Assembly: GCF_000319575.2 (NCBI RefSeq)
Contig: NC_021291.1
Location: forward strand, 372,001-436,000
Direction: 5' to 3'
Length of the DNA: 64,000 nt
DNA from: Spiribacter salinus M19-40
GTDB lineage: Bacteria > Pseudomonadota > Gammaproteobacteria > Nitrococcales > Nitrococcaceae
Position 1 is the first letter of the stretch. Every line of letters begins with the position of its first letter. A program made the position numbers and the translations under genes. The notes under the pieces are model-generated. The model was not told the origin of the DNA and did no database searches. It saw only the letters and a program-made list of their open reading frames with translations. Shown here one piece after another: positions 31,928 through 48,803 of this stretch.

Positions 31928-32404
31928 ATGGCCACACCTGCCGTCAATATCGGGATTGAAGAAGGCGCTCGGGCAGAAATTGCCGAAGGGGTCTCGCGCG
32001 TACTCGCCGACAGCTATTCGCTGTATCTGAAAACGCATAACTTCCACTGGAACGTCACCGGGCCGATGTTCAACTCGCTCCATGCGATGTTCGAAGAGCA
32101 GTACACAGAGCTTGCAACCGCGGTCGATGAAATTGCCGAGCGCATCCGTGCCCTGGGTGCCCAGGCCCCCGGTAGTTACAGTGACTATCAGCGCCTGACG
32201 GCGATCCCCGAGGAAAGCGGCGCACCGGAGGCTATGGAAATGGTCCGGCAGCTCATGCGCGATCACGAGACCGTCGCCCGGACGGCTCGCGAGGCGTTTG
32301 CGGTCGCGGATGGGGCCCATGATGAGCCCACGGCGGATCTGCTGACCCAGCGTATGCAGCTTCATGAGAAGACCGCGTGGATGCTGCGGAGCATGCTCGA
32401 GTAA
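31928..32404 (+). CDS. dps: Dps-family ferritin-like DNA protection protein
   Basis: A 158-residue four-helix protein with the Dps ferroxidase pattern: K-T-H-N-F-H-W-N-V near residue 37 and D-E-I-A-E-R-I-R near 70. It assembles as a dodecamer, oxidises Fe(II) with peroxide and protects DNA. A strong AAAGGAGG site precedes the ATG. The preceding palindrome suggests control by a Fur-family regulator. Its last 152 bases overlap, in antisense, the 3' end of the deacetylase gene. Confidence 0.92.
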   Translation: MATPAVNIGIEEGARAEIAEGVSRVLADSYSLYLKTHNFHWNVTGPMFNSLHAMFEEQYTELATAVDEIAERIRALGAQAPGSYSDYQRLTAIPEESGAPEAMEMVRQLMRDHETVARTAREAFAVADGAHDEPTADLLTQRMQLHEKTAWMLRSMLE

Positions 32405-33101
32405 GACGCGCCTTGGCCGGTGCTGGCGCATCCGGAAGGAAGCGGGCGAGATCCTGCTGCAGGTCGTCTGCCAGCGCCAGTTCCGGGTCATGGGGGTGCA
32501 GCCCGATTCGCAAGCCCGCGCCGCGCCGGGCGCGGGCCCGGTTAATTGCATTGCTAATGCCAAGCGCCCGGGCCTGGAATGGGTTGCCGGCCTCATAGCC
32601 GAGGAGCGCGCGTGACTGCCAGCGGCCCGTCGATACCTCGACAATGCCCCGCAGGGTCTCCACGTAGGGGAAAGGCTGTTCGTTCAAACGCGATAGCGGC
32701 ACACGACCGAGGGCCCAGGCCGGTGGAACATAAAGCCGCGGGCCATGCAGGCCCTGAACGGTGAGCCACGCATAGCACCGCCGCATCAACGCGAGAATGC
32801 CCTCGGCATCCAGGCAGAGGTGCTCGGCCACTTGTCGCGAGATGAGCGCGGCATGCAGTCGATGCCCGATGCCGCCGTAGTGATCGATTCGGTGGACCCA
32901 GCCATGACCTGCGATCTCATGGCCCGCGGACTGCCAGTCGTGGAGCTGACGCAGTGCGGCGGGCGTCCAGTCGCGCCCCGGTACCACTAGCAGCACCGGT
33001 GGTGGCCAACCCGCCTCGTGGCATTGCCTGATCAGACCGCGGACCGCCGGGAGGGTCTCCGGCATCACATCGTGAATGCTTAGATGCGGGGCAATGCCCA
33101 T
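32253..33101 (-). CDS. Polysaccharide deacetylase-like protein (NodB/DUF2334 type)
   Basis: A 282-residue TIM-barrel-like deacetylase: S-I-H-D-V near residue 8 (catalytic/metal Asp), G-H-E-I-A-G-H-G-W-V-H near 61 (H-x3-H metal motif), Y-V-P-P-A-W near 125 and G-L-H-P-H-D near 205. Such enzymes remove N- or O-acetyl groups from glycans or glycolipids. It overlaps the upstream sulfotransferase-glycosyltransferase gene by 22 bases, so the two are co-translated and probably act on one product. The last ~50 residues are antisense to dps, arginine/proline-rich and unlike the family; the conserved domain ends near residue 230. Confidence 0.75.
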   Translation of the reverse strand: MGIAPHLSIHDVMPETLPAVRGLIRQCHEAGWPPPVLLVVPGRDWTPAALRQLHDWQSAGHEIAGHGWVHRIDHYGGIGHRLHAALISRQVAEHLCLDAEGILALMRRCYAWLTVQGLHGPRLYVPPAWALGRVPLSRLNEQPFPYVETLRGIVEVSTGRWQSRALLGYEAGNPFQARALGISNAINRARARRGAGLRIGLHPHDPELALADDLQQDLARFLPDAPAPAKARLTRACSAASTRSSHEAAYAGSADPPWAHHGPHPRPQTPREPSGRRSRDRA

Positions 33102-35410
33102 CGGGCGGGTTTCCGTGCTGCTTGATCGCGCGTGGGTTGGGACGGACGGGTGTTCTCGATGAGCGTGGTCCACTCATCGATACAGCGAGTCGCCATGGAT
33201 CGAGCGGCCGCCTGCCCCGCAGCGGCTCGGGCTGCCAAGGTGGCTGGGCACTCGGCGCTGAGCTGGGTCAGGGCTCCTGCCACCGACTCGCCGTCGTCCA
33301 TGACGATCAGGCCGTTGGCGAGCTCTGGCCAGTCGGCAATGCCGCAACCGGGCGAGACCAGGGCGAGGCGACCCCGCACCATGGCCTCCAGGGCAACCGT
33401 GCCAAACGCCTCAACTTCAGAGGGCAGAACCAGCAGGTCCGCGTCATCCAGCACTTGCCTCAAGGCCGGCCTGGCGACCCAGCCAAGCGCTTCAAGGTTG
33501 TCGAGGCGCCGCGTGGCCGCCTCCACCTCAGCGCGGAGCGGGCCGTCGCCGGCCAGGGTGAAGTGGAGTTCGGGTAGCGCTTCTGCCGCCTCGATGACGG
33601 ATTGAACGCGTTTTTCGGCAGCCAGTCGGCCGACGAACAGCACCCGCTTGGGTGGCAGGCTCGGGGTAGCCGTTGGCTCGTCCACAAAGGCCTTGGGGAT
33701 CGGGGTGTTCACACGCACGGCCCGTTGCGCCCCTTTTTTCTGGGCGAGCGCGTGCATGTGCGCCGAGTTGCTGACGACCACGTCCGCGCGCCGGAATAAT
33801 GCGCGGTTGACCGCGGTCATGCCCCAGCGATTCAACCGACTGCGAATGCTGCCCCAGTACAGTCCCGCGAGGGCTTCATAGTCGGTATGCAGGCCAAAAA
33901 TCAATTTCGCGCCGATTCGATGGGCCATGTGCGCGGCCAGTAAGCCATAAGGGCCCGGCGTTGCCACGATGATGACCTGCGGGGCGGCATCGGCCATCGC
34001 CTGATACAGCGCCCAGGGCGAAGGCAGGGCGAGTGACTGGGTGGCATCGCCGGGTAGGGCCGCCTCGCGCCAGTGCGGGATGCGGTGCCCGCGTGGCGCC
34101 TTGCCAGGCGCGATCAGATTAATCGCCGCGACGCGATCATCCAGGTGATCGATGAGGTCGCTGTAATACGCACCCACGCCGTTGCGCTCAGCCGCCGCGT
34201 CCGAGACCACCACCACCCGTCGGGCGTGGCGGTAGGGTGTGACGTCAGCCGCGGCAATCGGCTGATCACCCGCGCAGTCGAAGCGCGCGGTCAGGTCGGC
34301 GAATTCTGCACGGATCAGCGCGGGGCTGAGGCCATGATCAGCCAGTTGATGCTGGTGGCCGGAACGGTGTGCGCCCGCCTGCTGGGCCCGATGCTTTAAG
34401 CGCTCGGCGTATTCGGGTGAGAGCGTCAGGTCGAATTGCTGGTAAAACCCCCGAACGGCGCCCGCCAGGTCAGTGCGCTGGGCATTGAGCGGCAGAAAAA
34501 CGGCGCGCTGAGGCGCTTGTGCGGGCAGCACGGCCAGTAAGTTGGCATAGGCGAAATGCAGTTGCTGGCGCATGCGGCGGTTGAACGCCCACTGATCGAT
34601 CGGCCCGTGCAGGGCGTTGAGCGCGGGCGTCATGCTGGCGATCTGCGAGGACACGACTTTTTGCGGTTCGCGCAGACACGCGATAAACCGGGCGTCGGGA
34701 AAGGCCTCGGCCAGGCTACCCGCCAGAACGGCATGACTGGCGTTTTTTGCCAGATAGGTCCGCTCGGTGCCATGGACATACAAATGCCGTTGGATGGCGC
34801 GGCGGTACTGGCCCATCAGGCGCTGTCGAGCCGAGTCATCCAGAGCTTCATCGCCGCGGCCAAGTCGCCACAGCCGCCGGGCGTTGGGGAATGCCACAAT
34901 GAGGATGAATGCGCTTAGGTGGGGAAGCAGGCTCAGGTAGTCCTCTTCCGGGGCGCGGGCACTGACGGGGTGCGCCTGCGTCAGCGGGCTCAAGATACGC
35001 TGGTTGAGCCACCCCGCCAGGCGCTGCATCGGGCTTCCAAGGGCGCGGTCGATTCGGGCCAGGGCGCGCCAGGCATAGCGGTGGCTGATCGCAGGCGCCA
35101 GTAAGCACTCCCAGGTGCGCTGGGTGGTGAACTGGCTGTCCTCGGCAAGCGCCTCGTGTAAGGCCGTGGTGCCGCTGCGTGGCACCCCAAGAATAAAGAC
35201 CGGCTGGCGTACCTTGATTTGGCGGTAGCGGCGAAAGCACAGCTCATCCAGCCAGAGCCCGACCCAGTAGTAGAGCAGTGCCGGGGGCAATAAGACGGCG
35301 GCCAACAGGGAAACCAGGACGCGGCGGGGTGTGGGGCGGAGTAAATCCTCGCGGCGTGGGACCAAGCCGGAGATGATCAAACCGAGGGTGTCAGCCAGCG
35401 TTTTCAGCAT
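33080..35410 (-). CDS. Sulfotransferase-GT4 glycosyltransferase fusion protein
   Basis: A 776-residue two-domain protein. Residues 31-52 form a membrane helix. Residues 70-385 are a PAPS-dependent sulfotransferase: 5'-phosphosulfate loop G-V-P-R-S-G-T-T (75-82) and 3'-phosphate site F-P-D-A-R-F-I-A-C-L-R-E-P (237-249). Residues 398-745 are a GT-B, GT4-type glycosyltransferase: V-V-V-S-D-A-A-A-E-R-N-G-V-G (Gly-rich acceptor loop), F-V-G-R-L-A-A-E-K-R near 580 and the nucleotide-sugar E-x7-E motif in E-V-E-A-F-G-T-V-A-L-E-A near 680. It starts divergently from the PlcP-like gene, with Pho-box-like sites between. GT4 enzymes next to PlcP (Agt) make glycolipids that replace phospholipids under phosphate stress; here a sulfotransferase is fused on, so a sulfated glycolipid is proposed. 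Confidence 0.85.
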   Translation of the reverse strand: MLKTLADTLGLIISGLVPRREDLLRPTPRRVLVSLLAAVLLPPALLYYWVGLWLDELCFRRYRQIKVRQPVFILGVPRSGTTALHEALAEDSQFTTQRTWECLLAPAISHRYAWRALARIDRALGSPMQRLAGWLNQRILSPLTQAHPVSARAPEEDYLSLLPHLSAFILIVAFPNARRLWRLGRGDEALDDSARQRLMGQYRRAIQRHLYVHGTERTYLAKNASHAVLAGSLAEAFPDARFIACLREPQKVVSSQIASMTPALNALHGPIDQWAFNRRMRQQLHFAYANLLAVLPAQAPQRAVFLPLNAQRTDLAGAVRGFYQQFDLTLSPEYAERLKHRAQQAGAHRSGHQHQLADHGLSPALIRAEFADLTARFDCAGDQPIAAADVTPYRHARRVVVVSDAAAERNGVGAYYSDLIDHLDDRVAAINLIAPGKAPRGHRIPHWREAALPGDATQSLALPSPWALYQAMADAAPQVIIVATPGPYGLLAAHMAHRIGAKLIFGLHTDYEALAGLYWGSIRSRLNRWGMTAVNRALFRRADVVVSNSAHMHALAQKKGAQRAVRVNTPIPKAFVDEPTATPSLPPKRVLFVGRLAAEKRVQSVIEAAEALPELHFTLAGDGPLRAEVEAATRRLDNLEALGWVARPALRQVLDDADLLVLPSEVEAFGTVALEAMVRGRLALVSPGCGIADWPELANGLIVMDDGESVAGALTQLSAECPATLAARAAAGQAAARSMATRCIDEWTTLIENTRPSQPTRDQAARKPARWALPRI

Positions 35411-35432
35411 GGCGCCAGACTGCCGTTAGCGT

Positions 35433-35450
35433 GTGACGCTTTGGTGACAG
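35433..35450 (-). promoter_or_regulatory. Pho-box-like site, sulfotransferase-GT4 side
   Basis: Minus strand CTGTCAC-CAAA-GCGTCAC: a perfect and a near-perfect PhoB half-site with the standard 4-bp spacer, 23-40 bases before the fusion gene start. The distance to the start codon is short, implying a short leader. Confidence 0.6.
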
Positions 35451-35461
35451 CTCGGGGTGAA

Positions 35462-35479
35462 TCGTCACAGCGGTTTAAC
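35462..35479 (+). promoter_or_regulatory. Weak Pho-box-like site, plcP side
   Basis: Plus strand TCGTCAC-AGCG-GTTTAAC, two 7-mers 11 bp apart resembling CTGTCA(T/C) at five and four positions, 47-64 bases before the PlcP-like start. Weaker than the facing site. Confidence 0.35.
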
Positions 35480-35525
35480 ATTCTCTCCCTATCCTCTGGC
35501 GAAACCTGGCCATGGGAAGAGCACC

Positions 35526-36344
35526 ATGACGGCGATCCTGCCTCTCCATCCGCTGCGATACCGTACCGTTTTCATCTCCGACACCCACCTGGGTTTCCGC
35601 GGCGCGCGCGCCGACTACCTGCTCGAATTTCTCGAGTCGATGGAATGCGAGACCCTCTATCTGGTCGGCGACATCATCGACATCTGGGAAATGCGCCGGC
35701 GCGGCCTGCGCTGGTCTGAAAGTCACAACGCCGTGATCCAGAACATTCTCGCCCGTGCCCGGCGCGGTACGCGCGTGGTCTACATCCCGGGTAACCACGA
35801 TGAAATGATGCGCGATTACGCGGGCATGACGATTGAAGGCGTGGAGATCTGCATGCGCGCAACGCACCAATGCGCGGACGGTCGGCGCCTGCTGGTGCTG
35901 CACGGGGATGAGTTCGACACCGTAGTCCAGTGCAGCCGCCTGGTCGCCATGCTGGGTAATCGGATGTACGCCTGGCTTATTCGCGCAAACCACTGGGTGA
36001 ATCGCGTACGCCAGGCGCTCAACCGGCCGTACTGGTCGCTGGCCGCGCATCTCAAGCACCGCGTCAAAAACGCCATGCAGTACATCGCCAATTACGAGGA
36101 CGCGCTGGTACACGAGGCCCGGGAGGCGGGTGTCGACGGGCTCGTTTGTGGTCATATCCACCACGCCGAGCTGAGCGAGCGCGACGGGCTGCTTTACTGC
36201 AATGACGGCGATTGGGTTGAGAGCTGCACGGCGCTGGCGGAGAGCCAGTCGGGAGAGCTGTCGCTGGTCGACTGGATCGCTTTACGGGAGACGTTAGGTG
36301 TCACCGCCGAGGCCGGGAAAGCGGAGCGGCGGAAGGCGGCGTAG
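35526..36344 (+). CDS. plcP: PlcP-like metallophosphoesterase (phospholipase C type)
   Basis: A 272-residue calcineurin-like phosphoesterase with F-I-S-D-T-H-L-G near residue 15, G-D-I-I-D-I-W near 48, G-N-H-D-E near 80, L-H-G-D-E-F near 121 and G-H-I-H-H near 200, then Y-C-N-D-G-D-W-V-E-S-C-T. The last block and overall order match the PlcP group, often mis-annotated as UDP-2,3-diacylglucosamine hydrolase (LpxH). PlcP removes phosphorylated headgroups from phospholipids to give diacylglycerol on phosphate starvation. Divergent pairing with a GT4 gene supports PlcP over LpxH. The start at 35526 follows GAAGAG; the upstream in-frame ATG at 35457 lies in the regulatory region. Confidence 0.82.
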   Translation: MTAILPLHPLRYRTVFISDTHLGFRGARADYLLEFLESMECETLYLVGDIIDIWEMRRRGLRWSESHNAVIQNILARARRGTRVVYIPGNHDEMMRDYAGMTIEGVEICMRATHQCADGRRLLVLHGDEFDTVVQCSRLVAMLGNRMYAWLIRANHWVNRVRQALNRPYWSLAAHLKHRVKNAMQYIANYEDALVHEAREAGVDGLVCGHIHHAELSERDGLLYCNDGDWVESCTALAESQSGELSLVDWIALRETLGVTAEAGKAERRKAA

Positions 36345-37931: not shown

Positions 37932-38076
37932 CTACTTCGCTCGTTTGCGAACACTTCTACCGTACTCTGCATACTTCGCCAACAGCTCGTCCAACTCGCC
38001 TTCCGCAATAGCCTCGCGCACACTACGCAACATAGCTGGCAACGCCTCCACGTTCTCAACTTCAATCGCATCCTTG
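37932..38076 (-). pseudogene. 3' remnant of an unidentified gene cut by the IS3 element
   Basis: An open frame of 48 codons ends at a TAG (37932-37934); it reads P-K-D-A-I-E-V-E-N-V-E and ends in a helical, basic tail (S-V-R-K-R-A-K). It begins exactly at the IS end and has no start. A matching 5' part may be the short frame starting M-K-G-F just beyond the other IS end (about 39302-39313, minus strand). Family not recognised. Confidence 0.5.
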
Positions 38077-38081
38077 GGGTT

Positions 38082-38930
38082 CTACCCCGCCACCGCGGAC
38101 GGTTTCGTTAAGCCTCGTTTCTGATCCATTGGTTGTTCAACTCGCCAACGCATTCTCGGGTTGTGGAATCCCTCAACATAATCAAAGACAGCACTTCGCG
38201 CCTCAGCCTGCGTTAAATAGCGCCGGCGGCGAACTCGGTCACGCTGGAGGAGACCGAAGAACCCCTCCGCCGCGGCGTTATCGCCACAGTCGCCAACGGC
38301 GCTCATGCTGCCGATGACATTATGGTCGCGCAGGAAAGCCTGGTATTCACCACTGGTGAACTGCGTTCCGCGGTCGGAGTGCAGGATCACCGGGCTGTTG
38401 TTTTTTCTCTACCAGATAGCCACCAGGACCGCCTTGAACACTAGTCGTCGGCCTTGCCGTGCGCTCATCGACGAGCCGATGACCACGTTGTTCTAGAGGT
38501 CAATGACTGCAGCCAGATACAGCCAACCCTCACCGGTAGGGAGATAGGTGATGTCCGTCACCCACCGCTCATTGGGCGCTGCCGCGCTGAAGTCCCGTTC
38601 GAGATGATTGCTCACTGCCATCGGCTGGCTGCCAGAGCGTTTGCGACGCCATGCCCGATGTTGCGGTATGCCCTGCAGCCCCTCGGCGGCTATCAGCCGG
38701 GCCACTCGATTGAGGCCGAGAGACTCACCCTCATAGAACAGCTGCTCATCTATACGAGGGGCTCCAAGAACATCTTAATGGTCTTCGTGAAGCTCCCGCA
38801 TGCGCTGGCGCAGCCGTTGGTTCTCAGCAGAACGCTGGCACACCGGTCGTGCAAGCCAGGCATAGAACCCGCTTGGCGAGACTTTCAGACAGCGGCACAT
38901 CAGTCGGACAGAATATTCAGCGCGACAGCG
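38082..38930 (-). pseudogene. IS3-family OrfB transposase, multiple nonsense mutations
   Basis: The reading frame shows HTH_21 and rve integrase segments: S-P-S-G-F-Y-A-W-L, then W-V-T-D-I-T-Y-L (first catalytic Asp), H-S-D-R-G-T-Q-F (second Asp) and A-A-A-E-G-F-F (catalytic Glu). At least three in-frame stops interrupt it: TAA after L-H-E-D-H, TAG after A-V-I-D-L (38493) and TAG after V-A-I-W, just before the H-S-D-R block. The DDE residues remain, so decay is by point mutation, not deletion. Confidence 0.8.
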
Positions 38931-39237
38931 TTGGATCACCTGGTACCGCCGGTGACGCGCTGGCGAAGAACGCCGCCGCCTCGCGCAAAAAATCCTGTTC
39001 CTTTCTCACCCGAGCAAGCTCTCGCCGCAACCGGGCGACCCCTTTTTCTCGTGGTTGGCCCTTGCCGGGGAAAGAGTCCTCGCCAGCGGTGTTGGATGCC
39101 CGGCACCAACGCTCGAGGACCGAGCGATGAATACCAAGATCATTCGCAACGTCTTTGATCGTCACATCAGGCCGACTCGCGAGCTCGACCGCTTCCTCTT
39201 TGAGCTCTCGACTGAACCGTCGTCTCTTCTGTCCCAT
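38917..39237 (-). CDS. IS3-family OrfA (transposase N-terminal subunit)
   Basis: A 106-residue protein with the HTH_Tnp_1 fold: [13 protein letters not shown] near residue 4, D-V-A-N-D-L-G-I-H and L-E-R-W near 32-44, followed by a leucine-zipper-like coiled region ([11 protein letters not shown]). It binds the IS ends and dimerises. The frame is intact to 38917 but the partner OrfB is broken, so transposition is not expected. In working members OrfA-OrfB fusion occurs by -1 frameshift. Confidence 0.8.
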
Positions 39238-39414
39238 CGGCCACCTCCTGCTTCCAATAATGAAGCTTTTCAGATGTGTCCGCAGCTATGGGATAGAACC
39301 CGAATCCCTTCATGGCCGCCACAGTGCATACCATAAATAGAGTATAGCACTACCTTCTATTGGGTATATATTCATAGTTAAAGCTAATGATGGCTTGGAT
39401 ACTACAAAAAGGAA

Positions 39415-39975
39415 ATGAGTATGCGGTGCAAGCAGGGACAAATTATTGGTTTATTAGGGATTGCATTGAGCACCATCCCTCTCACTGCAATTGCGGATGA
39501 GGAAGTAGACCAGACTATAACGTTCAATGTGGAAGAAGTTTCGATGCTTGCCATGTCTGGCGGCGATTCAGTCAAGCTCGAGCTCATCAACACGGATCTG
39601 AGCGCGGGCGAAGATCCAAGAAAAAGCGATAGTAATGACAGTACGCAACTTCAGTATACGGTACTGACAGACGACGATAATCGAAACATCACTATCGAAG
39701 CAGATGGTGACTTGCCCCCAGGATTCGATATAACGGCTGGCGTATCAAACATTCCCGGCGAGGGCCAGTGTGGAACAGCACAAACTGGAATCGATATGAC
39801 CAGCAAAAAGACTCAAACGCTAATCAGCGATGTTGGTACCTGCTGGACTGGCACCGGCACTGGCGCCCAAGTCGCCTACAGCATTAGCCCAACAGGCGGA
39901 ACTAATGGTGTCGCAGAACTTAATGCCTCTGACGAATACTCCATGGACGTCATGTATACATTGGGCGAGGACTAG
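39415..39975 (+). CDS. Secreted all-beta protein, candidate structural subunit of a surface system
   Basis: A 186-residue protein with a Sec signal peptide (cleavage near A-I-A-D). The mature part is acidic, predicted all-beta, has two cysteines (G-Q-C-G and G-T-C-W) likely disulfide-bonded, and ends with a beta strand Y-S-M-D-V-M-Y-T-L. Size, secretion, disulfide and first place in a cluster with a chaperone-like and an outer-membrane-like protein suggest a pilin or fibre subunit. Not a recognised pilin family. An ATG at 39421 is an alternative start. A 54-base gap with a C+G-rich inverted repeat (GGGCCGAC/GTCGGCCC around 39980-40008) follows, which may lower expression of the later genes. 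Confidence 0.65.
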   Translation: MSMRCKQGQIIGLLGIALSTIPLTAIADEEVDQTITFNVEEVSMLAMSGGDSVKLELINTDLSAGEDPRKSDSNDSTQLQYTVLTDDDNRNITIEADGDLPPGFDITAGVSNIPGEGQCGTAQTGIDMTSKKTQTLISDVGTCWTGTGTGAQVAYSISPTGGTNGVAELNASDEYSMDVMYTLGED

Positions 39976-39981
39976 GGCGAA

Positions 39982-40009
39982 CGGGCCGACTGTTTCTAAG
40001 GTCGGCCCT
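39982..40009 (+). terminator. Hairpin between the candidate subunit gene and the chaperone-like gene
   Basis: The arms GGGCCGAC and GTCGGCCC flank an 8-base loop (TGTTTCTAAG region) and are followed by TTCC. The T run is short, so partial termination or transcript stabilisation is as likely as full termination. Such a hairpin after the first gene is typical where the first product is the abundant structural subunit. Confidence 0.55.
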
Positions 40010-40032
40010 TCCTCACCCACGAGTAATCCGTG

Positions 40033-40857
40033 ATGTCTAACTCCGTCGGCCGTTCCCTTTTCGTCGCTACATTGCTCTGTTTTGCACTGCTCACGATGCC
40101 ATCGAGAGCCCAACAAGTTGTCGTTGCTGGCGAGCTGACACGTCTGCATTTAGGAGATGCAGGTAGCACCATAGCCGGACGTATCGCGGTGAATAATCGC
40201 GGTCCCGAAGCACGTAATGTCCGAGCCTACCTAACCGATTACCAACAAAGTCGGTCTGGAGGCTCGTACCCACCTGCTGGCACATTGGCTCGGTCCTCGG
40301 CCGAGTGGATGACTATCACACCCGGTGAACAGCGAATTGATCCCGGCGCCTCAGGCATATTTGCCTATGAAATGCACATTCCAGCCACAGACTTGCCTAT
40401 AGGCACCTTTTGGAACGTCATCATGATTGAGGGCGGCGATCAATCACAAGCTGCTCCTCCAGATGCGGGCGATCAACCGGCGGTGCCGGCTTTTTCAATC
40501 ACTCCGAGATTTCGCACTGCGGTTCGTGTCGATACGCAAGTTGGTCCGATCGACACGGATGGAATCGCTTTCATCAACCGCCATGTTGTCGATACGGGTG
40601 CAGGTGTCGAGCTTGAAGTATTGCTTGCAAATACCGGTAATAGCCGGCTCCCCGTGAAACTCTGGCTTGAGCAGTTCGGCAGTGATCAATTGAACAATCG
40701 TCTTGGTGAAGCACAAGAGGTTCTAATTTATCCAGGCGGAGAGCGTCGGGTGCGACTGCCACTGGCGTCATCAATAAAAAATGGCGAAGAGACCCTCATC
40801 GTCGCCGATGTGGAAGGGACTATGCTGGGTGCGCTCTACAAACTCCAGCTACCGTAA
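40033..40857 (+). CDS. Periplasmic chaperone-like protein of the surface system
   Basis: A 274-residue protein with a signal peptide (cleavage near S-R-A-Q) and two beta domains. The pattern of an N-terminal Ig-like domain (N-N-R-G-P-E-A-R-N-V-R near residue 54, I-P-A-T-D-L-P-I-G-T-F-W near 118) and a second domain with A-N-T-G-N-S-R-L-P near 198 resembles fimbrial chaperones and DUF11/NEW3-type Ig folds, but the PapD signature residues are not evident. Probably shields or delivers the upstream secreted subunit. It is followed after 3 bases by the outer-membrane protein gene. Confidence 0.6.
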   Translation: MSNSVGRSLFVATLLCFALLTMPSRAQQVVVAGELTRLHLGDAGSTIAGRIAVNNRGPEARNVRAYLTDYQQSRSGGSYPPAGTLARSSAEWMTITPGEQRIDPGASGIFAYEMHIPATDLPIGTFWNVIMIEGGDQSQAAPPDAGDQPAVPAFSITPRFRTAVRVDTQVGPIDTDGIAFINRHVVDTGAGVELEVLLANTGNSRLPVKLWLEQFGSDQLNNRLGEAQEVLIYPGGERRVRLPLASSIKNGEETLIVADVEGTMLGALYKLQLP

Positions 40858-40860
40858 GCG

Positions 40861-43584
40861 ATGCCAAGCCGGCAGATCTTGGTTTACGTCCTCGCAGGCT
40901 CTATCGCATTGTTCTCCTGCAACGGTTCAGCTGACGTCAGCGAAACTGTCGTGGGGATAACGCCAGAACTTATCGACGTAACACCAGGAGGCACAGCAAC
41001 GATCGCTTACCGCATCCGCAATCCGGGCGATACACCGGTTAGGGTAGAGGGCAATCTACAGCGCCCAGAAGTACTGACCCTTGCAATACCCCCAGAGCCG
41101 GTCGCCCTGCCATCGAAGGGCTCAGCAACGATGTTTGCGATGATTCGCGCCACATCGCGCACACCGCCAGGCACCTACAACCTTATCTTCCACTTACGCG
41201 ATGCTGATACAGCCGGCACTCTAATAGCGGGAAAGACGCGCATTCGGGTGATGGCAGTTCCTAAGCTCGAAATTCGACCCTTAGAGATTCCTCAACGCCT
41301 GATCGCAAATAGGAAAACGGTTGCCACCTATATGGTAAGTAATGTCGGTAACACGGTTGTTACGGCTCGTCTTCAAGCTGAGCTTTCGAGCAACAGCGCT
41401 TCCGCACCGACGTTAGACCCAGATCTTATTGACCTCAAGCCTGGCAAAACTCGAGAAGTGGCAGCTACCTTTACAACGGCGGCCGATCGTGGCTTTCAGC
41501 GCACTGAACGCCTTGTCGTCACGGCCACTGGCCTGAGTACTGATGACAACCCATCGCTGCTAGCGCAATCGGCGTCAGTGATCGACGTCCTTCCCGAGGT
41601 TGGTGGCAGCGATCCGTGGATACGTCTGCCAATAACGGCGAGCACCGCTGTGACGGCAACCGAATCACAAACTACGCTCAACTGGGCTATTAACGGCAGC
41701 GGATATATCGATGAAAAATCTGAGCGGCGTCTCGAATTCGAAGTGAATGAAAGCGGAGATAGATCATCAAACGACACCGATCAGACCGTCCAGGCCACAG
41801 CGCGATATGAACAGAATCAATGGCGTTTAGCCGCAGGCAATCGCCGCTTTAACCTCTCGAATCTCACGAGTGTGCGACGTAATGGCGTTGGAGCCAGTGT
41901 CGCTTATGGCGGCGATCGCAATGGACCCCTATGGGGCGTTTATGGTGTCCAGGATGAGGGCGCCGTGGGTGATCGTTTTGATCTCGCGAGCCATTTTGGT
42001 TGGCGGACTCACCGCAAAGATGTACTCAAGCTGAATTTTCTCCACTACTCAGGTGTCACGTCGGATGTTGCAAAAGACTCATCCGAAACTGTTACGAGTT
42101 TACAAATCGATACCGCCAATCGCCCATGGGGTAATTTGGCGATTGAGATTGCCCAAGACATGCAAGATGGCGGCAGTGCATGGCAGGCAGCTTACGAGAC
42201 CGACATACGCGCGCAGGGCCCGCGATTAACGCTATTCGCTCGCCAGGCCGCGCCGACATTCGCGGGTCGGCTACCCGACAGTGCAAGCTGGGGCACCAGC
42301 CTAGAATTCCGTCGCCGTGAGGGTGTCAGTATCACCGGTAGGTACGAAGAGTATCGACGTAATCTAGATTCCATAGTGGACCGAGGGACGGCGGTCCGGG
42401 AGAGTAATACAGCGTTAACGGCTCGATTACCGGTCAATGAGCTTTTTGGATTGCGCGGCGGAGTCCGCCGACTCACCTACCGTAACGCAGTTTCCTCGAA
42501 CGACGCCGCATATGAGCGGCTGAGTGGTGAAGTTGGGATAAATCTTCGTCTCGAAAACTGGCGTCACGGCCTGTCTGTAAAGCAAGAGCGCCGTGACGAT
42601 GTGCGGAGTCCCGACAAGTGGGCTGAGCAGGGCTATTCAATTTTTAGCCGTTGGCAACCGAGTCCTTCCTTCAGCGCAACCATTGACTTTGATCTAGTGT
42701 CGACATCCGCTCCCGAAGAGAGTCGGCTCGGCAATGACTTCCAACAACGCCGACTTAACCTACGCTGGTTACCCGTGGATGGGCTGGCTGTCGCGCTAAG
42801 ATATGCGAACAACAAAAAAGTCTACGATGACCTCGCACTTCGCGAGCGCGAAGCAACGCAAATTACTGCAGCGACGGCAACCTGGCGACTAAATAATCGC
42901 AATAGGATTTATTTTAAAGCGGCGCAGATACAAGATATTGAATTAGAGACGCGCAATCAATTGACACTCAGCTACGAGCATCGATTTTCTCTTCCGGTAA
43001 AACGCAGAAGTGGTATTGGCTCACTGAGGGGGCGGCTCGTTGATACCACTCGAGATCAGGACAACGGCGTAAGCGGTGCAATTATTTTTGCCGACACCAT
43101 TTCCGCAGTGACTGATGCAAATGGCTTTTATCGGTTTCGTGGTCTGCCAGCTGGCCCTCACAGACTTCGTGTCGAAACTGACCGAATCGTCGAGAATCTG
43201 ATCCCGGCCACTCCGGCAGGCCATCAAGTCACTGTTCAACCGGGGATTAATAATGAGTATGACCTTTCATTAGTTGCAGGTGCAGAACTAGTGGGAAGCG
43301 TGCGCTACGCCGAGAGCGGCCAACCACTCGGCGGGATACTCGTCGAGTTGCGACGAGAAGAAGAAGTCCATCGGACATTGAGCAGCGCTCAAGGCGAGTA
43401 CCGGTTTGAGCGTCTCGAACCCGGCGAATGGCAGCTTAAAGTCTATGGACAGAATCTGCCTGATGGACATCGGCTGCAGAATGCCGAGCAAGTCATTTTC
43501 CTGCAATCCGGTTATCAAATGGCTCCATCCATTGAGGTAACTAAACCTGAGCGGAAACTTCAAATGATTCAGTGGGAGGAGTAA
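40861..43584 (+). CDS. Large outer-membrane usher-like protein with Ig and CNA-B-like domains
   Basis: A 907-residue protein: signal sequence with a Cys at residue 20 (F-S-C-N-G, a possible lipobox-like site), two N-terminal Ig/NEW3-like domains (about 25-255; I-R-N-P-G-D-T-P-V and V-S-N-V-G-N-T-V-V), a ~460-residue region of alternating amphipathic strands with many Arg/Tyr/Trp (260-715), consistent with an outer-membrane beta-barrel, then two carboxypeptidase-regulatory/CNA-B-like domains (about 725-800 with D-A-N-G-F-Y-R-F-R-G-L-P-A-G, and 805-885 with Q-G-E-Y-R-F-E-R-L-E-P-G). The layout is usher-like (periplasmic domains, barrel, C-terminal Ig-like domains), but no plug or FimD/PapC signature is visible. 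Start ATG is 3 bases past the previous stop. Confidence 0.6.
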   Translation: MPSRQILVYVLAGSIALFSCNGSADVSETVVGITPELIDVTPGGTATIAYRIRNPGDTPVRVEGNLQRPEVLTLAIPPEPVALPSKGSATMFAMIRATSRTPPGTYNLIFHLRDADTAGTLIAGKTRIRVMAVPKLEIRPLEIPQRLIANRKTVATYMVSNVGNTVVTARLQAELSSNSASAPTLDPDLIDLKPGKTREVAATFTTAADRGFQRTERLVVTATGLSTDDNPSLLAQSASVIDVLPEVGGSDPWIRLPITASTAVTATESQTTLNWAINGSGYIDEKSERRLEFEVNESGDRSSNDTDQTVQATARYEQNQWRLAAGNRRFNLSNLTSVRRNGVGASVAYGGDRNGPLWGVYGVQDEGAVGDRFDLASHFGWRTHRKDVLKLNFLHYSGVTSDVAKDSSETVTSLQIDTANRPWGNLAIEIAQDMQDGGSAWQAAYETDIRAQGPRLTLFARQAAPTFAGRLPDSASWGTSLEFRRREGVSITGRYEEYRRNLDSIVDRGTAVRESNTALTARLPVNELFGLRGGVRRLTYRNAVSSNDAAYERLSGEVGINLRLENWRHGLSVKQERRDDVRSPDKWAEQGYSIFSRWQPSPSFSATIDFDLVSTSAPEESRLGNDFQQRRLNLRWLPVDGLAVALRYANNKKVYDDLALREREATQITAATATWRLNNRNRIYFKAAQIQDIELETRNQLTLSYEHRFSLPVKRRSGIGSLRGRLVDTTRDQDNGVSGAIIFADTISAVTDANGFYRFRGLPAGPHRLRVETDRIVENLIPATPAGHQVTVQPGINNEYDLSLVAGAELVGSVRYAESGQPLGGILVELRREEEVHRTLSSAQGEYRFERLEPGEWQLKVYGQNLPDGHRLQNAEQVIFLQSGYQMAPSIEVTKPERKLQMIQWEE

Positions 43585-43586
43585 CG

Positions 43587-44504
43587 ATGAAAACTCGCAG
43601 TGGTTTTTTAATTAGAGTCATCATCTTTCTGGGGTTGTCGAGTTACACAGGTGGAGCAGCCTTTGCAACGCCATGCGTTGCCGAGGGCGGAAATCTAAGT
43701 ATCGAAAACATTGACGGTAAACTCTATTGTCAGCATGTATTCCTCCAAAATGATCAAATAATTGTTTTCGATACGCCAATTTTGGTCCGCTATGAAATCC
43801 AGGCCGGTAGCGGCGGTAATGCTATTGGCGATTCAGGCGGGGGTGAAATCGGAGCGCGCCGCAAAGGCAGTAAACAATTGCCTACGGGTAGCAGTTCGGT
43901 CGTTGTCGGTGCCGGCGGCAAAGGTGGCAGCCCTGCAAAAAATCGATCGGCGTCAGGTCATGAGGGCCGCGATTCATCTCTCGGAGCAATCCGAAGCCGT
44001 GGTGGTCGTGGTGGCAACCTGCCTGGGTCGTCTAACCAGTCGACGCAAGCGCGTAAGCCGGGCAAAGACGGTCAAGATGGGTGGGTTAAAGTGCAGTACT
44101 CCGCCAACCAGTTGGATTGGGCGCCGATCGCAGCTATCGGTCTGGTTGCGCCCAGTATAGCGGGAGCTCCACCTCAAAGCAGACCGAAAAGCGGTAGCTT
44201 GATTCAGCTGATGCATCCATATTCAGGGGGCGCAAAACTTGCGGCGCGCATTGATAATGCCGTGGGTGAATTACCACGAGGCCTGGCAATCGAAGTCAGT
44301 GTCGATGGTCTCGTATCCGGATACCTTGCTGGCGATCGAACTGAAGTGACCCTCAAACCCCGAATTGTGGCAAATCGGCCGACATCGTTGCGGACCGCTT
44401 ACCGACTAATCTCAGAGGCTCCGGTTTTGATCGAGGATCAACATGGTGATGTCGGCGTAAGACTCGTGCTCTCGCCGTTGCCGGTTTCGGCCAGCGCAGA
44501 CTGA
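43587..44504 (+). CDS. Secreted Gly-rich protein, candidate tip adhesin
   Basis: A 305-residue protein with a signal peptide (cleavage near A-F-A-T), a Cys pair around C-V-A-E and Y-C-Q-H, then a Gly/Ser-rich low-complexity segment (about 75-155) with repeats such as A-G-S-G-G-N, V-V-G-A-G-G-K-G-G and G-G-R-G-G-N resembling glycine-rich domains of phage fibres and surface proteins, and a C-terminal beta domain of about 130 residues ending in V-R-L-V-L-S-P. It starts 2 bases after the outer-membrane gene stop, so it belongs to the same operon. Adhesin role is inferred from position and composition. Confidence 0.6.
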   Translation: MKTRSGFLIRVIIFLGLSSYTGGAAFATPCVAEGGNLSIENIDGKLYCQHVFLQNDQIIVFDTPILVRYEIQAGSGGNAIGDSGGGEIGARRKGSKQLPTGSSSVVVGAGGKGGSPAKNRSASGHEGRDSSLGAIRSRGGRGGNLPGSSNQSTQARKPGKDGQDGWVKVQYSANQLDWAPIAAIGLVAPSIAGAPPQSRPKSGSLIQLMHPYSGGAKLAARIDNAVGELPRGLAIEVSVDGLVSGYLAGDRTEVTLKPRIVANRPTSLRTAYRLISEAPVLIEDQHGDVGVRLVLSPLPVSASAD

Positions 44505-44535
44505 GACAGTACCATCCCGGTAATAACAACGGCTG

Positions 44536-46365
44536 CTAGCGCTGACCACGGGGGGAATCATTCAGCGGTAGTTTGATCAGCAAACGGGCCCCGGTGGGCG
44601 TGGCTGTAATCGACATTTCGGCGCCGTGGGCCTCAGCCCGGGCCCTCATGTTAGACCGGCCCGTGCCCTGCAGGGGTTTATTATCGCTCGCTAAAGACAG
44701 GCCCCGGCCACCGCCGTTCTCAATACACAAAAAATGGGTACGTTGATCGGTGTAGGCGACGATACTCAGCTCAGTGCAGGCAGCACGGTCCACGGCATTC
44801 GTGATCGCCTCCTGCAGGATTCGATAGATATCGAGGTTGAATTGGTCGCTGGGTGAATCGTAGTCGGCAAGGGAGGTCACGTCCATCTGCAGCTCGACAT
44901 CCATCGAGTTGAGCCTGCTCTGCATTTGGTCCTGGAACACCGATAGCACAACTAACAGCGACCCTTGCTGGCCGGAGATATCCCGATTCAGCATGAGGCG
45001 GATTTCATCCATCGCGCTTTTCGCGAGTTCTTTAACCGTGGTGGTTTTGCTGTCGGTGCGGGGCTCTAGTAGGGCGTACATGGACGATAGATAGCCCAGA
45101 ACGCCATCATGCAGATCCATCATGACATTTTTGTGAGCCTCGGATTTGGCCTGTTCAACTTCAACGAAAGCCCGCTTTGATGATTCACGCTGGATTTGCG
45201 CCGTCGCGTTGATGACCTTTTGCTGCAAATTTTTGTTCAGATCCTCGAGTTCCCGCCGCGTTTTAGCGAAATCCAGAATGAGGGCTAATGCGACTGAAGC
45301 GAAAAAAATCGGCGTGCAGAGTGGCACAAATAGTAGGTTGCTATCGATCCAACCAAATTTAACACTCAAATCATGCGCGATGCCGAATAAAGCACTGATT
45401 GTGGTGACTAACAGTGCAAAAGTCAGATAAGAACTGAACCGCAGACTGCGCTTTGTGAAAAGAACGACAACACCGATTGCCCAGATGATCAATGCCACCG
45501 GCAGTGAGTAAATAAGTGTTGCCTGAGCGCCAGGCAACAAACCCAACTGGATGGGTATGGCTAGAATGAACGCGAACGCCAGTAAAGTCCGGCGTGCAGT
45601 TTTTATGCGCTGCTGATGAACATCATTGGCTTCTAGTACCAGTCGAAAACCGAGGCAAACGACATAGGGAAGTAGCAGCATAAATTGATGGTAAAAGGCA
45701 TTGAGCGAGAAGGGGTCACCATCGAGGCTGCTTGCCTGTATGACCATAAAGAAGAGAACAACCGAACCTAAATGGCGGTAGTAAGTCGGAGTGCTTTTGG
45801 AAATAATTAAGGCGCCCAGCAGTAGCGCGATAAAAATTTCTACGCCAAGAAAGGTTATACGAAGATCATTGTAGTAAAAATTATGCCGTGAGATGATTTC
45901 TTCAAAATTGCTGACGGGCCCCAGATACCCGCCACGGAGGCGCAAAAACTGCGTCCCCGCCGGCTCAATACTGAACGTCAGGGTTGACGTGCTAAGATTG
46001 GTTGGAAGGCGCACCAGCAGGTCTTGCAGGTGGGATGGCCCTTGAACGGTCGACTCGGATCCCGCGTAAACCAGCAAGTCACCGTCGCTGAAGATACTCA
46101 GTATCCCCTCATAACCGCTGAAGTACAGCGCCTGGGGCTGACCGGTTGTTTTGTTCGCCGGGGGCAGCAGGATACTGCCGGTCACAGCCGCCTTTTGATC
46201 AACCCCCCGAAACTCCACCCACGGCAGGGGGACTGTGATGTCGGGGTCTGAATCAAACGCGATGAAAGCCTGTTGCTCTTCGCGTGGGACGTTCAGCAAT
46301 AAGGATCCGGAGAAATACAGGATTATCGGGATCGCCAGCATCAATGCGCGGGTAAGGCCTTGCAC
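44536..46365 (-). CDS. Membrane sensor histidine kinase (NarL-type HisKA_3)
   Basis: A 609-residue protein: N-terminal membrane helix (about 7-25), a periplasmic beta-rich domain (26-170), seven membrane helices (about 170-370, as in 7TMR-DISM sensors), a coiled coil (370-410), HisKA_3 with the phospho-His in M-M-D-L-H-D-G-V-L-G near 417, and an HATPase_c domain with I-L-Q-E-A-I-T-N-A near 515 and G-T-G-R-S-N-M near 575. It is followed after 2 bases by its response regulator. It lies convergent to the surface gene cluster inside the island, so it is the likely dedicated regulator. The ligand is unknown; the periplasmic domain resembles carbohydrate-binding jelly-rolls in other DISM proteins. 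Confidence 0.85.
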   Translation of the reverse strand: MQGLTRALMLAIPIILYFSGSLLLNVPREEQQAFIAFDSDPDITVPLPWVEFRGVDQKAAVTGSILLPPANKTTGQPQALYFSGYEGILSIFSDGDLLVYAGSESTVQGPSHLQDLLVRLPTNLSTSTLTFSIEPAGTQFLRLRGGYLGPVSNFEEIISRHNFYYNDLRITFLGVEIFIALLLGALIISKSTPTYYRHLGSVVLFFMVIQASSLDGDPFSLNAFYHQFMLLLPYVVCLGFRLVLEANDVHQQRIKTARRTLLAFAFILAIPIQLGLLPGAQATLIYSLPVALIIWAIGVVVLFTKRSLRFSSYLTFALLVTTISALFGIAHDLSVKFGWIDSNLLFVPLCTPIFFASVALALILDFAKTRRELEDLNKNLQQKVINATAQIQRESSKRAFVEVEQAKSEAHKNVMMDLHDGVLGYLSSMYALLEPRTDSKTTTVKELAKSAMDEIRLMLNRDISGQQGSLLVVLSVFQDQMQSRLNSMDVELQMDVTSLADYDSPSDQFNLDIYRILQEAITNAVDRAACTELSIVAYTDQRTHFLCIENGGGRGLSLASDNKPLQGTGRSNMRARAEAHGAEMSITATPTGARLLIKLPLNDSPRGQR

Positions 46366-46367
46366 TT

Positions 46368-47063
46368 TCAGGGGATGATCCCTTGGTTTCGCGCTTCGAA
46401 TATCGCCTCGGTACGGTTATGCGCCTGAAGCTTACGATAGATGTTGCGGACATGGACCGGCAGGGTTGTTCTTGCCATCGATAACGCTTTTGCAGACTCT
46501 GCCTGGCTCAGGCCCTTGGATAAGACGGTTAACACCTCAATTTCCCGTTCGGTCAGCCCGTGGTCAGCGTCAGGATCAGCCAGTTGCGGTTGAAATTGCA
46601 TCTTCTCCACGATTTTACGCGCAATCGAGGCGGAAATAGGCGACCCACCGCTTAAGGCCTGCTTGATGGCCTCAACGACCTCGATGGATGCATCATCTTT
46701 TTGGATATAGCCAACGGCGCCCATGACAAGCGCGGTGGTCACCGTTTCCGGATCGGAAAGACTGGAGACAACAATGACCTGACACTGGGGGTAGAGCGCG
46801 CAAACCCTTTGGATCGAAACCAGCCCAGATCCGTCCGGCAAACCAAGATCTGCCAGGACGACATCCAGCGGCCCTTCATTCAATAATTGCTCCAATTGCT
46901 CATTTGACTCAGCAAGCGCTACTTGTGAGGCTAAATCCGACTGCTCAATGATGGACTTGAATCGGTCTTGAATGACCTGGATGTCTTCCAGAATTGCGAT
47001 CTGTAACAACCGATCGGGCCGCGTGACGCCTAGCGGTGGTTCTTTTGAATCAACAACTTGCAT
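46368..47063 (-). CDS. NarL/LuxR-type response regulator
   Basis: A 231-residue regulator: receiver domain (about 20-140) with the phospho-acceptor Asp in V-V-L-A-D-L-G-L-P-D and Lys in Y-I-Q-K-D-D, then a LuxR-type HTH (L-T-E-R-E-I-E-V-L near 165, H-V-R-N-I-Y-R-K-L near 205). Likely phosphorylated by the adjacent kinase and activates genes of the island. The ATG at 47063 is preferred to a TTG at 47099 because of the compact N-terminus. The 140 bases to tRNA-Lys carry only A+T-rich promoter-like sequence. Confidence 0.88.
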   Translation of the reverse strand: MQVVDSKEPPLGVTRPDRLLQIAILEDIQVIQDRFKSIIEQSDLASQVALAESNEQLEQLLNEGPLDVVLADLGLPDGSGLVSIQRVCALYPQCQVIVVSSLSDPETVTTALVMGAVGYIQKDDASIEVVEAIKQALSGGSPISASIARKIVEKMQFQPQLADPDADHGLTEREIEVLTVLSKGLSQAESAKALSMARTTLPVHVRNIYRKLQAHNRTEAIFEARNQGIIP

Positions 47064-47203
47064 TGACGCGACCTTTGTTGGTAAAGGAAATAACGACAAC
47101 CAATACCACTCTACAGCGGTTTCACCCTATTTAACTACCTAAAAGTAGGGTTAAGTTATGTTAGGTAGAAAAAGCACCTCAGGAGACGTAGGCGCTGGGG
47201 AGA

Positions 47204-47279
47204 TGGTGGGTCGTGCAGGATTCGAACCTGCGACCAGCGGATTAAAAGTCCGATGCTCTACCAACTGAGCTAACGACCC
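47204..47279 (-). tRNA. tRNA-Lys (anticodon TTT)
   Basis: A 76-base cloverleaf with encoded CCA: 5' acceptor GGGTCGT, D-arm with GCTCAGTTGGTAGAGC, anticodon loop CTTTTAA, T-arm with GGTTCGAATCC, 3' acceptor ACGACCC plus A-CCA. Its 3' 45 bases are repeated at 37765-37809, marking the island boundary. Confidence 0.97.
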
Positions 47280-47456
47280 GATCAGCCCGGAATGATACGG
47301 CGCGCGCTGCTTTGGGGCAATCGTCCTGACCCGAAGACCCCGGCAGGACCGCCACAGGATGCCCGAGGTCGCAGTTTGAAAACTCCCCGTGGACCAGCGT
47401 GTTGCATGATCCCTGCAACCAATGGTGGTTCCACAGTATTTCGGGGAGAGCGATGG

Positions 47457-48803
47457 ATGAGTGCAAAACACCCGCATGTTGGCGTTAATGACGCGAATGT
47501 CACTCAGGTGACCAGCGTTGATCAGTCAGGCCGCAAGGTTCCCATCAATTTGCGTCAGTCAGGCCGCACCCCGGTGGAGATGTTGATCTCGACCCGCGTG
47601 CGCAAGTCGCCATACTGGCATCTGGCCCACCAGGCGGGCTGTTGGCGAGCCACCGTGTATAACCGCATGTACCACCCACGCGGCTATGTCCGCCCCGAGG
47701 ACGGTGGGGCGATGGTGGAGTACGACGCGCTCGTCAACCACGTCACAATGTGGAACGTCGCTGTCGAGCGGCAGATCCAGGTCAAGGGACCGGATGCCGA
47801 GGCCTTCGTGAACTACGTGATCACGCGCGATGCCACGCGCATCAAGCCGATGCACGGCAAGTACGTCATTCTATGCAATGAAGCGGGCGGCATCCTGAAC
47901 GACCCGGTTCTGCTGCGCATCAGCGAGGATGAGTTCTGGTTCTCGCTGTCGGACAGTGACCTTGAGCTGTGGATGCGTGGCGTGAACATTGCCAAGGGCT
48001 TTGATGTGACCATCGCCGAGATCGACGTCGCCCCCGTGCAGATTCAGGGGCCGAAGTCCGAGGATTTGATGGCGGATCTTTTCGGTGAAGCGGTTCGCGA
48101 GATTCCGTATTACGGCCTCATGGCCGGTCAGGTCGCGGGCCGTGATGTGATTATCTCTCAGACGGGTTTCACCGGTGAGAAGGGCTATGAGATCTATCTG
48201 CGGGATGCGACCCGCTATGCCGAGGACATGTGGAATACGGTGCTCGAAGTGGGTAAAAAGCATCAGTTGATGGTGATCGCCCCGGCGCATCATCGCCGCA
48301 TCGCCGCGGGCATTCTGTCCTGGGGACAGGATATCGACATGGAAACGCTGCCATTCCAGTGCAACCTGGCCTATCAGGTGCCGCGAAACAAGGCGGCGGA
48401 CTACATTGGCAAACAGGCCCTCGAGGCGGCTCGTGCGAGGCTTGAGGCGGGCGATCCGCCCTTCCATCTCAAGATGGTCGGCCTGACCTTTGGTGGCCTG
48501 CCGATTACCGACTATGCGCCTGACTTTTGGCTGGTGGCCGAGCGGGGCGCCGATGAAGCAGTGGGTTACATCAGCTCGCCCTGGTATTCGCCGGAGCTCG
48601 AGACCAACATTGCGTTGGCCTGGGTCCCCGTCAATCGCACCGAGGTGGGAACGGCGCTCGAGGTCTGGCTACCGGACGAGTACACCCAGGGCCTACCCGG
48701 CAACCGGGTGAACGCTGAGGTTGTCAGCGTGCCCTTCCGGCCCTCCGTGAACCCCAATGCCCGCGAAGTCGCGAGCACAAAGGGGCTGGACTACGCCGAG
48801 TAG
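47457..48803 (+). CDS. GcvT-like aminomethyltransferase-family protein (DmdA-related)
   Basis: A 448-residue folate-binding protein: N-terminal GcvT fold with N-Y-V-I-T-R-D near residue 117, a long T-protein core (S-Q-T-G-F-T-G-E-K-G-Y-E-I-Y near 232), and the C-terminal barrel (V-A-W-V-P-V-N-R near 385). It is longer than true GcvT (about 365) and related to the group containing DMSP demethylase DmdA and dimethylglycine/sarcosine-demethylating proteins; no gcvH or gcvP is adjacent. It probably moves a methyl or methylene group to tetrahydrofolate from an unknown N- or S-methyl compound. The start at 47457 has GGGGAGAG upstream; longer frames overlap the tRNA promoter. Confidence 0.8.
   Translation: MSAKHPHVGVNDANVTQVTSVDQSGRKVPINLRQSGRTPVEMLISTRVRKSPYWHLAHQAGCWRATVYNRMYHPRGYVRPEDGGAMVEYDALVNHVTMWNVAVERQIQVKGPDAEAFVNYVITRDATRIKPMHGKYVILCNEAGGILNDPVLLRISEDEFWFSLSDSDLELWMRGVNIAKGFDVTIAEIDVAPVQIQGPKSEDLMADLFGEAVREIPYYGLMAGQVAGRDVIISQTGFTGEKGYEIYLRDATRYAEDMWNTVLEVGKKHQLMVIAPAHHRRIAAGILSWGQDIDMETLPFQCNLAYQVPRNKAADYIGKQALEAARARLEAGDPPFHLKMVGLTFGGLPITDYAPDFWLVAERGADEAVGYISSPWYSPELETNIALAWVPVNRTEVGTALEVWLPDEYTQGLPGNRVNAEVVSVPFRPSVNPNAREVASTKGLDYAE

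Follow-up and report, generated by a model that had tools for sequence, protein, structure and literature searches.

The 64,000-nucleotide stretch of Spiribacter salinus M19-40 DNA analyzed here (the window) carries a real and conserved gene cassette that our searches of the open-access literature found nowhere described and that is a variant of PlcP-type lipid remodelling. The actual unit is a trio composed of a sulfotransferase (ST), a GT4 glycosyltransferase and a CE4-type deacetylase, carried by some halophilic and marine bacteria. The cassette looks induced by phosphate shortage via putative PhoB control, and its product is probably a sulfated sugar lipid able to replace phosphate-containing membrane lipids. 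PlcP remodelling is known to yield sugar lipids and betaine lipids. The cassette predicts a further PlcP branch in Gammaproteobacteria, with a headgroup containing both nitrogen and sulfate.

The reading that we hold with moderate confidence is that of a Pho-regulated glycolipid-synthesis cassette forming a branch of PlcP-type membrane-lipid remodelling, in which a hexosamine-diacylglycerol (DAG) is deacetylated and sulfated. PlcP would cleave phospholipids to release diacylglycerol, onto which the GT4 would transfer an N-acetylhexosamine, probably GlcNAc with UDP-GlcNAc as donor. Removal of the acetyl group by the CE4-type deacetylase would follow, and the membrane-anchored ST would move sulfate from PAPS onto the amino sugar. 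The resulting aminoglycolipid, located on the cytosolic face, would contain sulfur but no phosphorus. In the Spiribacter ST–GT4 fusion, the intermediate could be passed between the active sites. GlcNAc transfer and deacetylation are suggested by the analogy of the GT4-deacetylase pair with GpgSD, while the plcP link and the Pho-box-like sites point to diacylglycerol as the acceptor, as reported for Agt (PMC8528852). Supply of PAPS is plausible because APS kinase, a general trait, was found in 22 of the 23 genomes of the family, including that of S. salinus itself. If a hydroxyl of the deacetylated headgroup is sulfated, the product would be zwitterionic and closer to phosphatidylethanolamine, whereas sulfation of the amine would make it anionic. 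N-sulfation would explain why a deacetylase is kept in a sulfation pathway; that the cassette makes N-sulfoglucosaminyl-diacylglycerol, the fused ST N-sulfating the amine freed by the deacetylase to give an anionic, phosphorus-free stand-in for phosphatidylglycerol under phosphate shortage, by a logic resembling that of heparan N-deacetylase/N-sulfotransferase (NDST), is at best a tentative possibility.

The fusion is a protein of 776 aa encoded at positions 33080..35410 of the minus strand, as delineated by its ORF, Pfam matches and structural model. A hydrophobic helix (residues ~30-54) precedes a PAPS sulfotransferase that extends to residue ~380, followed by a linker and a GT4 domain (~394-757). 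The ST half (34256..35410, minus strand) was assigned from Sulfotransfer_3 (residues 70-298 of the fusion, 1.6e-20 in Pfam), motifs and fold matches. It contains both a 5'-PSB (GVPRSGTT, residues 75-82) and a 3'-PB (FPDARFIACLREP..VSSQ, residues 237-256, with FPDARFIA at 237-244), and residues G75, P77, R78, S79, G80, T81, P238, R247 and S255 were invariant among 16 aligned ST sequences. AlphaFold2 modelled the entire fusion with a pLDDT of 91.0 and a pTM of 0.87; the nearest solved folds to the ST model were STF9 (2z6v; residues 1-381, Z 32.7 over 349 residues at 3.1 A) and STF1 (2zq5, Z 29.2). Together, the 5'-PSB, the 3'-PB and the fold identify this half as a PAPS-dependent sulfotransferase. 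Likewise, profile, fold and an E-x7-E region (EAFGTVALE) identify the other half (33083..34255, minus strand; Pfam, tree, alignment and fold) as a GT4 enzyme, with Glyco_trans_4_4 at residues 410-564 and Glyco_trans_1_4 at 588-718 of the fusion, and solved GT4 folds including MshA and BshA matched at Z ~32. Our results thus confirmed the original prediction of a single protein joining a complete PAPS sulfotransferase to a complete GT4 domain. Both halves are under selection, with dN/dS values of 0.08-0.14 (ST) and 0.13-0.18 (GT4) across four pairs of relatives chosen apart from the window gene. The hydrophobic segment at residues 30-54 suggests that the ST half is membrane-anchored; no segment above the same threshold was found in the deacetylase or PlcP.

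Of the 14 genomes in the Spiribacter-like genus, 13 carry the fusion (truncated by a contig end in G015); the closest counterparts of the fusion among named genomes are those of an uncultured Ectothiorhodospiraceae bin and of Spiribacter. In five of the nine genomes of the family's other genera, ST and GT4 are separate adjacent genes, for a family total of 18 of 23 genomes bearing both. The source genome is a single 1.74-Mb contig. An assembly error, which the original prediction had named as a possible undoing, is therefore ruled out by the 13 genomes of the genus and the adjacent split genes of its sister genera, as well as by further in-frame fusions in two genomes of other families, G107 and G168 (the latter with one TGA in a longer alignment, outside the stretch checked for in-frame fusion). 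These three fused groups did not form one clade on the GT4 tree, and fusion thus probably arose more than once. The fusion that had been proposed as the unit is real, but it is a genus trait atop an older three-gene cassette. One of the bins (G018) contains two distinct fusion copies (C33:809-3058 and C3:1785-4040), reflecting duplication or strain mixture.

The order ST, GT4, deacetylase was constant in the ST-bearing loci examined, split and fused alike (in L044, the deacetylase is truncated by a contig end). Two genomes of one genus, G379 and G173, carry GT4 and deacetylase genes without ST (loci L153 and L154, respectively), those of G173 containing stops or frame breaks and looking decayed. 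Since these genomes keep the pair, GT4 and deacetylase can have a use of their own, as expected if ST and the pair acted on different substrates and were fused for co-expression only, for example to make GlcN-DAG while another membrane lipid is sulfated. We consider this very doubtful, as the constant gene order of ST-bearing cassettes and the occurrence of ST–GT4 fusions in three groups that do not form a single clade argue for one pathway.

Beyond the family, a search of 398 phylum-wide genomes at E 1e-30 recovered only one genome besides the window, G565, which belongs to the same class. When a mobile origin was looked for, no plasmid or phage record covered 80% of the fusion. Elsewhere in the window, positions 38000-48000 have a G+C content of ~0.53-0.56 compared to ~0.59-0.66 around and could be an acquired island; this segment contains genes for a 906-aa protein with CarboxypepD_reg/SdrD_B-like domains, for another protein rich in glycine and for a paired histidine kinase and response regulator.

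The third gene of the cassette (~32253..33101, minus strand) is located outside the coordinates of the original prediction, sharing 22 bp with the 3' end of the fusion gene. It encodes a DUF2334/CE4-type deacetylase, as indicated by a profile match, the predicted fold and an alignment. Its model matched HP0310 (Z 13.7, 199 residues, 3.7 A) and also NDST1 (Z 10.6). Residues H10, D11, H66, H70 and H202 (numbering of alignment A3) were invariant in 22 sequences; the fold, the metal-binding Asp and the His-x3-His motif place the protein among CE4/NodB enzymes. The coupling of a NodB-type deacetylase to the fusion was thus correctly foreseen, and all loci examined have a deacetylase gene downstream. 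The window copy has ~50 extra C-terminal residues compared to other Spiribacter copies, a tail that was poorly modelled.

Upstream of the fusion, a phospholipase C-like phosphoesterase gene, plcP, diverges on the plus strand. Its ORF spans 35457-36344, and ATG at 35526 is the likelier start, giving a protein of 272 aa (35526..36344; start choice, homology and tree) and a gap of 115 bp to the 5' end of the fusion, in agreement with the predicted divergent arrangement. No hairpin was found in this intergenic DNA (z 0.13). The protein shares 47% identity over 89% with an S. meliloti protein that we take to be the SMc00171 ortholog, i.e. PlcP, because the nearest genes listed upstream of it encode an AHL synthase and, 2.8 kb away, a LuxR regulator, in keeping with the sinR/sinI synteny. 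A 3.72-Mb S. meliloti replicon labelled pSymB (L229, CP090106.1) has a plcP ortholog and is probably a mislabelled chromosome. In a tree containing LpxH from 7 of 23 loci, the phosphoesterase clade split from LpxH at 100/100, so placement outside the PlcP clade, the second outcome that could have undone the original prediction, did not occur. LpxH identity is ruled out by this tree, by a score of 40.2 bits against a cut-off of 190.35 (TIGR01854) and by a separate LpxH above cut-off in all 23 family genomes; hence, the divergent gene encodes a member of the PlcP clade and not LpxH.

We observed that the cassette and plcP are strongly associated. Among 369 evenly sampled gammaproteobacterial genomes, 11 had the GT4-deacetylase cassette, nine of them with ST. 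All 11 had a plcP match (10 near full length, one a remnant) compared to 94 of 358 others, with a Fisher p of 6.7e-7, or 1.7e-5 without the clear fragments of G001 and G218, these counts keeping a few other short or stop-bearing matches. Restricting the comparison to ST-bearing cassettes gave 8 of 9 vs 95 of 360 (p 2e-4). The 11 genomes represent nine families, all nine with plcP (p ~7e-5, with the total number of families set at ~181 after the highest label). Cassette and plcP were also found together in a Teredinibacter genome (G768). Within the family, 17 of the 18 genomes with ST and GT4 have a near-full-length plcP, and G001 has a C-terminal remnant. Among the five family genomes lacking ST and GT4, one (G014) had no plcP match and three (G003, G004 and G007) had matches at LpxH only; in the fifth (G006), plcP adjoins an Agt-like GT4 gene.

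Nevertheless, PlcP is not strictly needed, because G001 has only a remnant and no plcP was found in G565, which carries the whole cassette and is listed as 100% complete. Furthermore, genomes encoding GpgD were also enriched in plcP (7 of 11, p 0.015), so the ST cassette is not alone in this association. The predicted partnership with PlcP therefore holds as co-occurrence above background but mostly not as proximity, since among the 17 family genomes examined (18 stretches in all) only three, namely the window, G002 and G005, have plcP next to the cassette. In G002, plcP and ST are separated by a gene for a GtrA-type membrane protein (L054:11281-11907), which might act as flippase for the product. 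More generally, GT4 genes adjoin plcP in 14 of 54 plcP-search loci scanned with the cassette GT4 as query, a set in which the locus of the window and five LpxH-like matches are counted. This is as expected for PlcP-Agt. The commonest neighbor of plcP is reported to be a glycosyltransferase, with putative Pho boxes there (PMC4796936).

A Pho-box-like direct repeat, CTGTCAC-N4-GCGTCAC (35433..35450, minus strand), starts 40 bp upstream of the fusion start in the window and scores 12/14 (p 0.004). The Pho-box consensus is CTGTCAY-N4-CTGTCAY, and sites were scored against it within 200 bp upstream of each gene. Scores of at least 11/14 were obtained upstream of 5 of 12 Spiribacter fusions, loci that are not independent, vs 12 of 257 control upstream regions (Fisher 3e-4), and upstream of 6 of 13 other ST genes (Fisher 5e-5 against the same controls), two of these six sites being in reverse orientation. 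The remaining 7 of the 12 Spiribacter fusions scored below 11. The best site begins exactly at -40 in 7 of the 12; no site was found at -40 in the other five, nor for the second G018 copy, which was excluded from the 12. In those five loci (L038, L040, L041, L042 and L047), a gene for an S30AE (ribosome hibernation factor-like) protein ends immediately before the fusion; S30AE also lies upstream in some site-bearing loci. Further sites include three repeats with 11-bp spacing upstream of the G001 ST (L024) and, in G565, the sole GTCAY-N6-GTCAY in 11.3 kb (0.10 expected), located 143 nt ahead of the first ST residue in the alignment. Upstream regions of plcP also scored high (combined p of 2.8e-9 for 35 outside Spiribacter and 9e-5 for 13 within).

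In the S. salinus genome, the motif also lies between phoR, which scored above its cut-off, and a gene of the PstS family, which reached 144.9 bits against a cut-off of 206.6. Genome-wide, the motif was not enriched there, with 10 sites vs 9 for a reversed control. The Pho argument therefore rests on position and conservation, and the phosphate-starvation setting of the original prediction is supported by the upstream sites. A PhoB match was found in all 23 family genomes, above the curated cut-off in 21. On comparative grounds, a tie of the cassette to phosphate starvation is well supported. In G014, the only genus genome that lacks cassette and plcP, the DNA-binding end of phoB shifts frame (G014:C1:1516147-1516698, L237), explained either by a lost Pho response or by an error in sequencing.

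The cassette GT4s (27 rows), GpgS (9 rows, from 9 of 11 GpgD loci) and the main Agt-like group (12 rows) formed three separate 100/100 clades on a tree from which the broken G173 row was excluded, the first two on long stems. Agt-like rows are GT4s encoded beside plcP, two of 14 (L135 and L140) falling outside the main clade, and experimentally characterised Agt is absent from the tree. In this framework, both Agt and GpgS identities are ruled out for the cassette GT4, and the original prediction, which drew its parallel with Agt, needs correcting on this point. A GpgSDF-like pathway would have the GT4 add GlcNAc to phosphatidylglycerol (PG), the deacetylase yield GlcN-PG and the ST sulfate it, resulting in a modified phospholipid. 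GpgS/GpgD chemistry has been demonstrated in P. aeruginosa (PMC12713373), G565 has the cassette without plcP, and NCBIfam ranks GpgS third among the matches of the fusion (39.9 bits) and gives GpgD alone for the deacetylase (51.4 bits). These scores are far under the curated equivalog cut-offs of 480 and 280, which neither protein reached, the GT4 clades are distinct, and the Pho-box-like sites and plcP co-occurrence better fit phospholipid sparing. We thus regard this pathway as unlikely.

A non-lipid product is quite unlikely, whether a small sulfated amino-glycoside (serving as osmolyte or as precursor of a thiol-like cofactor) or the precursor of a surface glycan. The top folds of the GT4 half include BshA and MshA, which glycosylate small acceptors with GlcNAc and whose products undergo later deacetylation, sulfated sugars are made by halophiles, and the GtrA-type gene of G002 would suit such a product. 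However, high Z scores are common throughout GT4, the conserved close Spiribacter neighbors that were annotated are metH, IalB, S30AE, SOD and a SHOCT protein, and the hydrophobic N-terminal helix of the ST, the Pho-box-like sites and the plcP link all fit a membrane lipid better. With the sulfated aminolipid that we favor, cells would be able to economize on phosphorus and still have negatively charged or zwitterionic membrane lipids; as with other changes of the headgroup, susceptibility to cationic antimicrobials could change too. The genes, the candidate promoter site and a strain genome, that of Spiribacter salilacus C176, are available for testing.

Our searches of the open-access literature returned no description of an ST–GT4–deacetylase cassette, none linking PlcP, glycolipid, phosphate and sulfotransferase, and none naming SMc00171 together with PlcP; related searches gave nothing on point among the matches listed. 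Several known systems share parts of the cassette. The mycobacterial sulfotransferases STF9 and STF1 (2z6v and 2zq5) are nearest to the ST half in solved fold and sequence, yet they are stand-alone proteins with ~18-22% identity to it. NDST likewise combines a CE4-like deacetylase and a PAPS sulfotransferase. The analogy is limited to logic, as NDST is eukaryotic and acts on polymers, whereas in the cassette ST is fused to GT4 and not to the deacetylase. The GpgSDF system of P. aeruginosa, in which GpgSD is reported to make GlcN-PG (PMC12713373), likewise has a GT4 followed by a DUF2334/COG3233-type deacetylase; the cassette differs by falling below both cut-offs, by its separate GT4 clade, by its extra ST and by a stronger association with plcP. 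Finally, PlcP-Agt (S. meliloti, Phaeobacter MED193, SAR11 and P. aeruginosa) shares with the cassette a PlcP-clade phosphoesterase, a GT4, Pho-box-like sites and the sparing of phosphorus. The Agt products MGDG and GADG, reported in PMC4796936 and PMC8528852, are neither deacetylated nor sulfated. In contrast, the GT4 of the cassette falls outside the Agt-like clade, and the cassette adds a deacetylase and a PAPS sulfotransferase.
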